Assembly (NCBI RefSeq): GCF_016862575.1
Contig: NZ_BONF01000012.1
Span: forward strand, 1 to 64,000
Length of the DNA stretch: 64,000 nt
Direction: 5' to 3'
Origin: Catellatospora bangladeshensis
Lineage (GTDB): Bacteria > Actinomycetota > Actinomycetes > Mycobacteriales > Micromonosporaceae
Below are positions 1 through 7,587 of this stretch, one piece after another. Below the pieces are notes generated by a model. That model was not told the origin of the DNA. It saw only the letters and a list, made by a program, of their open reading frames with translations, and searched no databases. Within the stretch, counting starts at the first letter, position 1, and each line of letters begins with the position of its first letter. A program made the position numbers and the translations under genes.

Positions 1-236
1 TTTCGACACGAAACAGCGATCTTGGGCCGACCTGCCAGCCCCGTCGGCTCCGCCCTGCGGCAAGATCGGCGTTTCGTGTCGGAACGTGGGGCCCAGCCCG
101 ACCTTTGGACACGAAACAGCGATCTTCGCCGATGCGGCTGGCCTGCGGTGGGAGCCGGACCGGGGCGCGCCACGCGGGGAGGGGATACCGGTTTGGAAGA
201 GCCCGGATCGGTGCGGTAAGGTTCGTTGTCGCTTAC
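1..236. repeat. Intergenic repeats upstream of tRNA-Ile
   Basis: No gene is recognised here. A 20-base unit, GACACGAAACAGCGATCTTG, lies at 5-24. An inverted copy with two differences is at 61-80 and a third, direct copy is at 108-126. Copies one and two can pair into a long stem with a loop of about 36 bases. A related copy is at 54653-54672, so this is a dispersed intergenic family and not part of the tRNA gene. Confidence 0.7.
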
Positions 237-3089: not shown

Positions 3090-3129
3090 TTTGCAAGGCG
3101 GGGGTTAGGAGTTCGATTCTCCTAGGCTC
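3090..3129 (+). repeat. Right attachment-site repeat (tRNA-Ala 3' fragment)
   Basis: This 40-base copy is identical to 521-560. The upstream half of a tRNA is absent, so it is an att remnant and not a second tRNA gene. Immediately downstream, an inverted repeat (CCAGGCTGtaCCG about 3140-3152, CCGGTGCAGCCTGG about 3171-3184) may mark further integration-related structure. Confidence 0.85.
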
Positions 3130-3304
3130 ACCAGGAAAACCAGGCTGTACCGACGGCTGTGACACAGCGACCGGTGCAGCCTGGAGTCCTTTCGGCCGGT
3201 GGGCTGATTGTCTGCCCGCTGTCGTGGGCAATACGCTTTCGCCGCCCGCAAGGTCGATCTTCCCTGCCGGGCGTCTCTTCGCTTCTCCGACGGGGGAGAA
3301 ACAC

Positions 3305-5859: not shown

Positions 5860-6042
5860 GCGCCACCTCCTGCCATGAGGACCGTCTCTTTGTACCGCGC
5901 GGTGGCCCTGGGCACAGGCGGGCGAACGGCTGAGCTGCGCGGACATCGGCCGCGGAAAATGAGGTTGCCTCCCGAAGGGCGTCGCCAATACCGTATGCCC
6001 ACACCAAGAACTACACCGCGAAAGAACGGACCGGAGACAGAC

Positions 6043-6171
6043 ATGAGCGCCTTCTCGTACACCGCGCACCGGCTGACGCCGTGCGTCGAGAACGCCATGC
6101 CCGCCGCCGTCCGAGGTGGCTGCGCGTATCTGTGGGAACCCGACCCGGGACGGGGCGGGCGGCGCTGCTGA
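6043..6171 (+). CDS. Possible 42-residue peptide
   Basis: An ATG at 6043 preceded by GGAG at a 6-7 base spacing opens a short frame (MSAFSYTAHRLTPCVENAM...). It ends just before a good hairpin terminator (6193-6228). It has three cysteines and no signal peptide or known motif. The codon pattern is compatible with coding but the frame is short. It sits directly before the tRNA array and may instead be untranslated sequence. Confidence 0.3.
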   Translation: MSAFSYTAHRLTPCVENAMPAAVRGGCAYLWEPDPGRGGRRC

Positions 6172-6192
6172 AGCGCTGCCGAAGCGGCTTTC

Positions 6193-6228
6193 AGGCCGCC
6201 CGCCTCCGATCACGGAGCCGGGCGGCCT
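6193..6228 (+). terminator. Hairpin terminator before the tRNA array
   Basis: AGGCCGCCCG and CGGGCGGCCT form the base of a long stem interrupted by one bulge, with a 4-base loop and TTCTTC after it. It separates the small ORF and upstream region from the leader of the tRNA array. Confidence 0.6.
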
Positions 6229-6288
6229 TCTTCATGTCCAAGGCACTTGAGCAGCAGGAACGGCAACACCGGACGTCCGGCACGCGGA

Positions 6289-6330
6289 TCGTTCGGACCT
6301 TGAGAACTCCACAGTGGATGGCATTGAGAA
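6289..6330 (+). promoter_or_regulatory. rRNA-type boxA/antitermination leader before the tRNA array
   Basis: The stretch CCTTGAGAACTCCACAGTGG at 6298-6317 closely resembles the conserved element of actinobacterial rRNA leaders and 16S-23S spacers (CTTGAGAACT...CACAGTG), where Nus factors promote antitermination and RNA processing. It lies 40 bases before the first tRNA of the array and no rRNA gene is nearby. The resemblance is seen directly; the antitermination role is inferred from rRNA operons. Confidence 0.6.
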
Positions 6331-6355: not shown

Positions 6356-6426
6356 GGCCGATTCGGCTATGGGTAGGCCCCCGAGCTCTCTACTCGGAAA
6401 AGCGGGTTCGAGTCCCGCATCGGCTG
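6356..6426 (+). tRNA. tRNA-Glu (CTC), first of the array
   Basis: GGCCGAT pairs with ATCGGCT (first pair G-U), and the discriminator is G as in glutamate tRNAs. The anticodon stem CCGAG/CTCGG encloses the loop CTCTCTA, giving anticodon CTC. The T-arm is GCGGG/CCCGC with loop TTCGAGT. The D-stem is only about 3 bp and position 37 is T where a purine is usual. CCA is not encoded. The fold is good but slightly atypical. Confidence 0.8.
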
Positions 6427-6443
6427 CGTAACGAAACATTCCC

Positions 6444-6514
6444 GCGGTTGTCGCACAACGGCAGTGCGCTGCCTCGCCATGGCAGAGATCCGGGTTCGAC
6501 TCCCGGCTACCGCT
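6444..6514 (+). tRNA. tRNA-Gly (GCC), second of the array
   Basis: GCGGTTG pairs with CTACCGC except for one T-T mismatch, and the discriminator is T, normal for glycine. The anticodon stem CTGCC/GGCAG encloses TCGCCAT, giving GCC; position 33 is C instead of the near-universal U. The T-arm is CCGGG/CCCGG. CCA is encoded at 6515-6517. The HNH gene begins 33 bases later. Confidence 0.82.
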
Positions 6515-6549
6515 CCAACCCGACCACAGCATTCCAAGGAGGTGACCCG

Positions 6550-6993
6550 ATGAACGCAGTACTCGTCCTCAACGCCGACCTCGGCCCGCTCCACCGGGTC
6601 AGCCTGCGTCACGCCCTGCGCATGCTGTGGCGGCAGGTCGCGGTGGTGCACGAGGCGGAACCTGATCAGGCCATCGGGGTCTTCCCGATGCCCAAGGTGG
6701 TGCGCCTGGTCAGCTACGTGGTGACCCGCTGGCGTTTCAGCGGCGGGCCGACCTGGTCCCGGCGCGGCGTGCTCGTCCGCGACCAGCACCGCTGCGCGTA
6801 CTGCGGCGGCGCCGCGTACACCATCGATCACGTGCTGCCCAGCTCGCGGGGCGGCCGTAACACCTGGCTCAACACGGTGGCCGCCTGCGGCGGCTGCAAC
6901 CAGCGCAAGGGCGATCGCACGCCCGCCGAGGCGGGGATGCCGCTGCGGTACCACCCGGCGGTGCCTTCGTGGGCGATGCTGGCCAAGCGCTGA
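6550..6993 (+). CDS. HNH endonuclease inside the tRNA array
   Basis: A perfect AAGGAGGTGA Shine-Dalgarno (6536-6545) precedes this ATG. The 147-residue product has a 75-residue N-terminal region, then a zinc-ribbon HNH domain. CxxC is at residues 82-85, the catalytic IDHVLPSSRGG is at about 92-102, and a conserved Asn and the second cysteine pair CGGCNQRKG are near 110-120. All expected metal and catalytic residues are present, so the enzyme should be active. HNH genes are familiar in phage and mobile-element tRNA clusters; here it splits the array after the second tRNA and reads in the same direction. Likely roles are homing, element maintenance or defence; none is shown by the sequence. Confidence 0.88.
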   Translation: MNAVLVLNADLGPLHRVSLRHALRMLWRQVAVVHEAEPDQAIGVFPMPKVVRLVSYVVTRWRFSGGPTWSRRGVLVRDQHRCAYCGGAAYTIDHVLPSSRGGRNTWLNTVAACGGCNQRKGDRTPAEAGMPLRYHPAVPSWAMLAKR

Positions 6994-6994
6994 C

Positions 6995-7022
6995 GGCTGC
7001 GGGCCTCACGGGGCCCGCAGCC
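6995..7022 (+). terminator. 11-bp perfect hairpin after the HNH gene
   Basis: GGCTGCGGGCC at 6995-7005 pairs perfectly with GGCCCGCAGCC at 7012-7022 around a 6-base loop. There is no T-run, and tRNA-Ala starts 4 bases later. It may act as a processing signal separating mRNA from tRNA precursor, or as a weak terminator. Confidence 0.5.
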
Positions 7023-7026
7023 CTTC

Positions 7027-7099
7027 GGGCTCATAGCTCATCTGGTAGAGCGCCGCTCTTGCAAAGCGGAGGTGGCCGGTTCGAGTCCGGCTGGGTCCA
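7027..7099 (+). tRNA. tRNA-Ala (TGC), array
   Basis: GGGCTCA pairs with TGGGTCC and includes the G3-U70 pair. The anticodon stem CCGCT/AGCGG encloses CTTGCAA, giving TGC. CCA is encoded at 7100-7102. It has the same anticodon as the chromosomal tRNA-Ala at 490-562 but a different body sequence, so it is not a recent local copy. Confidence 0.93.
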
Positions 7100-7103
7100 C
7101 CAT

Positions 7104-7177
7104 GCCCTGATGGCGCAACGGGACAGCGCACCGGTCTACGAAGCCGGGGGTTGCAGGTTCGAATCCTGCTCAGGGCA
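7104..7177 (+). tRNA. tRNA-Arg (ACG), array
   Basis: GCCCTGA pairs perfectly with TCAGGGC, and the discriminator is A. The anticodon stem CCGGT/GCCGG encloses CTACGAA, giving ACG. The T-arm is GCAGG/CCTGC. It begins one base after the encoded CCA of the preceding tRNA-Ala, so maturation must cut a single shared spacer base. Confidence 0.9.
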
Positions 7178-7206
7178 CGAGGACGCGGTGGGGGGCCGCG
7201 TTCGAA

Positions 7207-7280
7207 CGGGATGTGGCGCAGCTTGGTAGCGCGCTGCACTGGGGGTGCAGAGGCCGTCGGTTCGAGTCCGGCCATCCCGA
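7207..7280 (+). tRNA. tRNA-Pro (GGG), array
   Basis: CGGGATG pairs with CATCCCG. The C1-G72 pair and A discriminator are hallmarks of bacterial proline tRNAs. The anticodon stem CTGCA/TGCAG encloses CTGGGGG, giving GGG. The T-stem has one T-G pair. CCA is not encoded. Confidence 0.92.
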
Positions 7281-7296
7281 CGCAGGGAAAGTCCAC

Positions 7297-7370
7297 GGCG
7301 CGGTGGACGAAGGGGAGAGTCGCCCGCCTTTCAAGCGGGAGTGCTGCGGGTTCGAATCCCGTCCGCGCTG
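7297..7370 (+). tRNA. tRNA-Glu (TTC), array
   Basis: GGCGCGG pairs with CCGCGCT (first pair G-U, as in the other array tRNA-Glu), and the discriminator is G. The anticodon stem CCCGC/GCGGG encloses CTTTCAA, giving TTC. The D-stem is short. CCA is not encoded. With the CTC gene at 6356 the array covers both glutamate codons. Confidence 0.88.
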
Positions 7371-7387
7371 CTGTAACAAATGATCAT

Positions 7388-7470
7388 GCGGATGCGCCGA
7401 CGCTGGAGAGTCGGGCCCGGCTGTAACCCGGGTGCCCTCGGCTGAGTGGGTTCGAATCCCTCCGTCCGCA
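7388..7470 (+). tRNA. tRNA-Tyr (GTA), array
   Basis: GCGGATG pairs with CGTCCGC, and the discriminator is A. The anticodon stem CCCGG/CCGGG encloses CTGTAAC, giving GTA, and a long variable arm follows as expected for tyrosine. The T-stem GTGGG/CCCTC has one T-T mismatch, and the anticodon loop ends in C. CCA is not encoded. Probably functional, with signs of drift. Confidence 0.8.
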
Positions 7471-7475
7471 CGCAC

Positions 7476-7549
7476 GGCCTCGCGGCGTTCCGGGTGGAGC
7501 GCTCCGTCTGCAAAACGGATGTCCTCGGGTTCGACTCCCGGCGTGGCCT
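7476..7549 (+). tRNA. tRNA-Cys (GCA), last of the array
   Basis: GGCCTCG pairs with CGTGGCC except for one central T-T mismatch. The T discriminator is the cysteine identity base. The anticodon stem TCCGT/ACGGA encloses CTGCAAA, giving GCA. The T-stem is TCGGG/CCCGG. It starts 5 bases after tRNA-Tyr. CCA is not encoded. Confidence 0.83.
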
Positions 7550-7587
7550 CTGCTCGTGCCGTCCACCGTGGGTTCTAGGGTGCGGAC

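Follow-up and report, generated by a model that had tools for sequence, protein, structure and literature searches.

The window analysed in this study, a stretch of 64,000 nucleotides from Catellatospora bangladeshensis (contig NZ_BONF01000012.1, positions 1 to 64,000), carries eight tRNA genes identified by ARAGORN at about 6356-7550, a high tRNA density within approximately 1.2 kb, and a gene for an HNH endonuclease among them. Upstream of this array we identified a unit at 5956-6235, absent from the earlier note on this DNA, which is composed of a promoter, a leader ORF and a hairpin. The features are listed below.

5956..5994, plus strand: WblC/WhiB7-like promoter, AAAATG (5956-5961), 3 nt, TTGCCT (5965-5970), 18 nt, TACCGT (5989-5994); by script
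6043..6171, plus strand: predicted leader ORF (uORF) of 42 codons with ATG start, MSAFSYTAHRLTPCVENAMPAAVRGGCAYLWEPDPGRGGRRC
6150..6164, plus strand: candidate antiterminator segment ACGGGGCGGGCGGCG within the last uORF codons, a possible pairing partner for the 5' hairpin arm; duplex calculation
6194..6235, plus strand: terminator-like hairpin (6194-6227) and interrupted T tract TTCTTCAT; script, fold, compensated pairs
6298..6321, plus strand: box CCTTGAGAACTCCACAGTGGATGG between hairpin and first tRNA; similar box at two mycobacterial plasmid arrays, by eye
6356..6427, plus strand: tRNA-Glu(CTC); ARAGORN, Rfam tRNA model, predicted structure
6444..6517, plus strand: tRNA-Gly(GCC); ARAGORN, Rfam tRNA model, one acceptor mismatch
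6550..6993, plus strand: HNH endonuclease gene, 147 aa; HNH domain match, Shine-Dalgarno sequence, dN/dS
7027..7102, plus strand: tRNA-Ala(TGC); ARAGORN, Rfam tRNA model, predicted structure
7104..7178, plus strand: tRNA-Arg(ACG); ARAGORN, Rfam tRNA model, predicted structure
7207..7281, plus strand: tRNA-Pro(GGG); ARAGORN, Rfam tRNA model, predicted structure
7297..7371, plus strand: tRNA-Glu(TTC); ARAGORN, Rfam tRNA model, predicted structure
7388..7471, plus strand: tRNA-Tyr(GTA); ARAGORN, Rfam, one T-stem mismatch, weak score
7481..7550, plus strand: tRNA-Cys(GCA); ARAGORN, Rfam, acceptor and D stems damaged, weak score

The same eight tRNAs and anticodons had been named in the earlier note, and all were indeed recovered by ARAGORN. 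Using the gathering score of the Rfam tRNA model, six of the eight passed in the scan of the 64-kb window and all eight in the whole-genome search, the weakest being Tyr (32.9 bits) and Cys (33.0 bits). The predicted structures of Glu(CTC), Ala, Arg, Pro and Glu(TTC) contain no mismatched pair, those of Gly and Tyr contain one each, and Cys is damaged in both the acceptor and D stems. The minimum spacer of a single base, also claimed before, lies between Ala and Arg (7102/7104). The anticodon loop of tRNA-Gly(GCC) (6472-6482 region) reads TCGCCAT, C replacing the usual T at position 33. The HNH gene is intact and follows the second tRNA as described, and its product of 147 aa carries the HNH_5 domain (E 1.6e-13), with PF14279 and PF01844 both above cut-off; its dN/dS within Catellatospora is 0.147. 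The proposal of a strong ribosome binding site agrees well with the Shine-Dalgarno sequence AAGGAGGTGA at 6536-6545, the sole exact copy within the window, where seven more sites match with one mismatch against an expected total of 1.44 for exact or one-mismatch sites.

The host genome (8.83 Mb in 115 contigs) gave 61 Rfam tRNA matches, and an anticodon census by ARAGORN on the window plus 40 genome stretches gave 60 tRNAs, one stretch (L157) yielding none. In this census each of the eight array anticodons was found in at least one copy outside the array, ruling out that the array is a set of single-copy essential tRNAs, the finding that the earlier note had named as speaking against a mobile origin. 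Codon compensation, one of the roles suggested for the array, is likewise disfavoured, because every array anticodon occurs elsewhere in the genome. The array tRNAs are only 62-84% identical to the host tRNA with the same anticodon and are thus not recent duplicates. The anticodon loop differs from that of the same-anticodon host tRNA in five of the eight, Glu(CTC), Gly, Ala, Arg and Tyr, and is the same for Pro, Glu(TTC) and Cys.

The distance between the HNH gene and dnaA is 19 kb in sister genome G007 and 35 kb in sister genome G002, and the placement of the array near oriC was therefore correct. The surroundings had been taken to be free of other phage genes, but a truncated tyrosine integrase gene (589-1107) lies directly after tRNA-Ala upstream of the array, and the 3' end of tRNA-Ala is duplicated with 90% identity at 521-571 and 3090-3140, the copies being 2.6 kb apart; the region is thus not clear of mobile-element traces. 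These three segments are probably what is left of an element that had inserted at tRNA-Ala. The array lies outside the repeat pair and is distinct from this remnant. The possibility that the array was cargo of this integrase element is not supported, since the repeat pair ends before the array and since in L039 the array follows tRNA-Ala at 0.7 kb with no comparable insert between. In five of the seven named Catellatospora contigs, tRNA-Ile and tRNA-Ala were found 0.7-4.6 kb upstream of the array, and in the remaining two neither was present within the stretch examined. A 23-nt direct repeat, TTT(C/G)GACACGAAACAGCGATCTT, is located upstream of tRNA-Ile at window positions 1-23 and 104-126.

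Searching 61 genomes for the HNH protein gave some match in 59, and a close one (88-100%) in all 11 genus genomes (G000-G010, Catellatospora-like). The array is kept in each of these 11 genomes with 6-8 tRNAs [the list for L011 contains two extra, the neighbouring Ile and Ala]. Its content varies: Gly is absent in L014, Glu(TTC) in L019, L044 and L045, and Cys in seven of the 11, and Gln is present in five of the 11. Between species the array tRNAs show 0.02-0.10 differences per site versus 0.248 at fourfold sites of the HNH gene, an evolution 2.4 to 12 times slower. As judged from these comparisons, single array tRNAs are dispensable and the set as a whole is constrained.

Outside the genus, the same HNH was found inside arrays of 11-33 tRNAs in Plantactinospora, Rugosimonospora, Virgisporangium, Actinocatenispora, Catelliglobosispora and two Micromonospora loci, and in smaller arrays of 4-6 tRNAs in Dactylosporangium and one further Micromonospora locus. 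In 12 of the 20 non-Catellatospora bacterial arrays, the HNH gene is flanked by Gly-GCC and Gln-CTG. The same position is occupied by a 71% identical HNH on an IMG/VR contig of 166 kb, which carries 34 tRNA matches at 120-139 kb and, at 30-44 kb, genes for the tape measure, major tail and minor tail proteins (PHROGs E 3e-76, 1e-53 and 8e-63), indicating that it belongs to a tailed phage. This is the only IMG/VR contig with a close HNH relative, and among 183 phage and 88 plasmid records no HNH match above 60% identity was detected in a named phage or plasmid. Mycobacterial plasmids and Microbacterium phage A3Wally have more distant relatives within their tRNA arrays. In A3Wally an RNA ligase gene adjoins the tRNA/HNH array (L181 7676-8758), as if for tRNA repair. 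The redundancy and divergence of the tRNAs, their retention in all 11 genus genomes, and the occurrence of the same HNH at the same place in larger arrays and in the tailed-phage contig give good support to the earlier suggestion that this is a domesticated or stranded mobile array. The Catellatospora array is, on this comparative evidence, apparently a shrunken, vertically kept phage-type tRNA array.

Among 93 HNH sequences, at least three adjoining tRNAs were found in 32, one or two in 3, and none in 58. Absence of linkage between HNH and tRNAs in relatives, also named in advance as evidence against a mobile array, thus holds for 58 of the 93 sequences and fails for the other 35. On the HNH tree the solo label takes seven changes, at least four of them forced by well-supported branches, which suggests, as the simple reading, repeated loss of tRNAs from around the HNH gene, a direction that we infer. 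The solo HNH genes are situated mostly at one conserved Micromonospora chromosomal locus; 51 of the 65 other loci resemble the solo locus L074 over at least 2.5 kb of DNA. The solo Micromonospora genes show dN/dS of 0.21, and their loci (L074 and about 50 others) carry a WblC-like promoter, a leader of 25-39 codons and a hairpin with no tRNA at all. Since the same leader is retained ahead of solo HNH genes, either the nuclease is useful in itself or the unit persists after its tRNAs have gone.

The layout in front of the array was recognised by reading the DNA ahead of the first tRNA at 18 loci: an AT-rich hexamer, 3 nt, TTGC, 16-19 nt and TANNNT, followed by an ORF, a CCGCCC...GGGCGG hairpin with T's, and the first gene. 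A promoter of this type was detected by script at 79 of the 92 related loci, about half of which are close Micromonospora relatives and thus not independent. It is rare ahead of other genes: the script matched 3 of 307 upstream regions of other genes on the contigs of these loci, none of eight paralogous HNH genes, and 7 of 1840 mono-nucleotide shuffles, the 307 gene upstreams being the better control than the shuffles. The 13 misses include L098, which matches once the true first tRNA is used, and L107, which is cut by the contig end; by eye, near variants were seen at several (L063 and L110, for example) and none at L023. The promoter is kept in all 11 Catellatospora sequences. PMC7157823 gives the WblC motif as GAAAWY-N3-TKGMNN-N16-19-TANNNT. 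The window promoter fits it in spacing, -35 and -10, and its AT hexamer AAAATG fits at four of the six positions. A general sigma-70 scan detected no promoter at the window site 5956-5994. In the host genome, a gene that we take to be whiB7-like from its AT-hook, a typical whiB7 trait, is preceded by TAAAAC-CGT-TTGCGC-N18-TAACCT, 592 nt before the open frame; a looser version of the script also matches one of the other five WhiB genes, which is not of whiB7 type.

A leader ORF was found by script in 76 of the 79 promoter-positive loci and a hairpin in 65, the hairpin of L117 among them being doubtful. In Catellatospora both are kept in all 11 sequences, the uORF at 41-43 codons, and the leader alignment contains one 3-nt indel inside the uORF and indels of 1-3 nt outside it. 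The peptide is weakly conserved (dN/dS 0.45 for 15 pairs in Catellatospora, and 0.81 for the 29-codon Micromonospora leaders, which lack a third-position excess). The uORF ends just ahead of the terminator-like hairpin, as in an attenuator, with 22 nt between stop codon and hairpin in the window and group medians of 20-22 nt for 67 leaders. The duplex between the candidate antiterminator and the hairpin arm reaches -31.4 kcal/mol in the window, a value attained by none of 200 shuffles. Across 67 leaders this pairing was significant (p<0.05) in only 22: 4 of the 11 from Catellatospora, 8 of the 19 from larger arrays and 10 of the 37 solo ones. With z -4.07, the window leader RNA folds better than all 200 shuffles; its minimum-energy structure joins a C-rich stretch in the middle of the uORF to the G-rich uORF end that is also the candidate partner of the hairpin arm. 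A choice among 1:2, 2:3 and 3:4 pairings is the hallmark of classical attenuators, to which these C-rich/G-rich pairings may be likened. By RNAalifold, compensated change is present in 14 of the 49 pairs of the Catellatospora alignment. A simple terminator scan found no terminator at the window hairpin, the T tract of which is broken.

The array of the phage contig is also preceded by a leader ORF and hairpin, with TACCGT recognisable by eye and no match to the promoter script, and the M. musae array is preceded by a leader and hairpin. The same attenuator was not seen in mycobacterial plasmid arrays, as neither uORF nor hairpin was found by script in the two examined. The box TTGAGAACT(C/A)CACAGTG is shared by Catellatospora and two mycobacterial plasmids (L172 and L174), where it lies upstream of the first tRNA; the core of the window box (6298-6321) occurs once in the host genome at up to one mismatch, and the box resembles rRNA-operon leaders. 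We also considered whether the leader senses every amino acid, for which the support is weak: 19 larger-array leaders contain 16.5 distinct residues versus 14.8 expected (median p 0.15), so that overall diversity is only slightly raised, and Trp and Cys are enriched.

Attenuators of the trp/his type combine a leader ORF, alternative G-rich and C-rich pairings and a hairpin ahead of the structural genes. The unit described here has a counterpart of each, the pairings as candidates and the hairpin standing before the array genes, and differs in that its leaders are not runs of a single amino acid but are enriched in Trp and Cys. Units classed as tRNA arrays have at least about 20 tRNA genes. The Catellatospora array, with eight against relatives of up to 33-34, is by count therefore a reduced relative rather than a member, although it has the embedded HNH and tRNAs that repeat host anticodons in divergent sequences. 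Arrays with HNH genes have been described from Mycobacterium chromosomes, plasmids and phages (PMC5966550, PMC12803027) and share with the present one dense clustering, redundant anticodons, divergent tRNAs and an HNH of the same wider family; here, in contrast, the array is of eight tRNAs, fixed in the genus, and is preceded by a WblC-like promoter, a leader ORF and a hairpin. The promoter layout and leader ORF resemble the WblC/WhiB7 regulon and the uORF attenuation of wblC/whiB7, a regulon that responds to translation stress and tRNA cleavage and counts tRNA genes among its members (PMC7157823, PMC10287673); the difference is that the controlled unit here is a phage-type tRNA/HNH operon, for which WblC binding and induction are putative. 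Phage tRNAs that evade tRNA-cutting defences (PMC10264068) are likewise redundant, and five of the eight loops here are unlike the host, a count based on one-to-one comparison with the same-anticodon host tRNA; the present tRNAs differ in being chromosomal and kept by the bacterium. While tRNA arrays with HNH are thus already known, a literature search, with most subscription journals outside its reach, found none described as controlled by a leader attenuator or by WblC.

We consider it somewhat probable that the locus is a stress-inducible, attenuator-controlled tRNA/HNH operon derived from a shrunken, vertically kept phage-type array. Disturbance of translation would start transcription from the WblC/WhiB7-like promoter through putative WblC binding, and the first product of the transcript would be the short leader peptide. 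If the leader is completed, the terminating ribosome would mask the G-rich 3' end of the leader, allowing the hairpin at 6194-6227 to form and to stop transcription. If the ribosome stalls early, because tRNAs are cleaved or uncharged, the G-rich segment would instead pair with the 5' arm of the hairpin and transcription would continue, yielding divergent spare tRNAs, which may replace damaged host tRNAs, and the HNH nuclease. WhiB7/WblC respond to disturbed translation (PMC7157823, PMC10287673), and in M. abscessus whiB7 is the most induced transcript after VapC5 has cleaved one tRNA (PMC10287673). In Streptomyces, six tRNA genes belong to the WblC regulon, and a uORF attenuates wblC itself (PMC7157823). 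Changes in the anticodon loop have been proposed to let phage tRNAs withstand the tRNA nucleases of the host (PMC10264068). Supply of tRNAs under attack, as raised in the earlier note, remains plausible and is strengthened by the upstream unit, induction and function of the operon being so far predictions from sequence.

That the locus is decaying phage or plasmid debris, slowly losing tRNAs behind an idle inherited control region, we regard as rather unlikely. Such decay would agree with the variable tRNA content and loss of individual tRNAs between species, the weak Cys and Tyr, the integrase remnant nearby and the redundancy of all array anticodons, but not with tRNAs evolving 2.4 to 12 times slower than HNH fourfold sites, with an HNH dN/dS of 0.147, or with a promoter, uORF and hairpin kept in 11 of 11 Catellatospora sequences and also ahead of solo HNH genes. 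It is improbable, too, that the unit serves a stress-induced nuclease and that the tRNAs are passengers lost over time: the leader stands ahead of the first tRNA, not of the HNH gene, in arrays that range up to 33-34 tRNAs, and the array tRNAs are constrained in Catellatospora, even though 58 of 93 HNH sequences, most at the one Micromonospora locus, stand without tRNA under the same promoter and leader and with dN/dS of 0.21.

Homing, which had been listed among the possible roles, is disfavoured as a present one because those 58 of 93 sequences lack tRNA neighbours. An endonuclease that cuts in tRNA arrays and spreads or amplifies its segment, as proposed for phage arrays, has a precedent in SegB and the amplification of tRNA-Tyr in T6 (PMC13096335), and would account for the HNH relatives within arrays of mycobacterial plasmids and phage A3Wally; the fixed position of HNH in Catellatospora, and its retention by purifying selection in the absence of tRNAs at one fixed locus in Micromonospora, make this very improbable here.

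The purpose of tRNA arrays in phages, plasmids and chromosomes is an open question in the field. Extending the attenuated operon to the family, we propose tentatively, as a possibility short of an expectation, that Micromonosporaceae and at least one of their phages share a dedicated emergency system, in which a WblC-type promoter and leader-peptide attenuator would open a store of divergent spare tRNAs and HNH upon tRNA destruction or starvation; it would be a domesticated phage anti-defence array, of which the nuclease alone is left in Micromonospora. If this is true, a conserved translation-sensing switch, with leader and hairpin common to phage and host, would tell when spare tRNAs are wanted, the idea of an emergency supply would become testable by reporter, and WblC/WhiB7 stress control would be linked to phage counter-defence.
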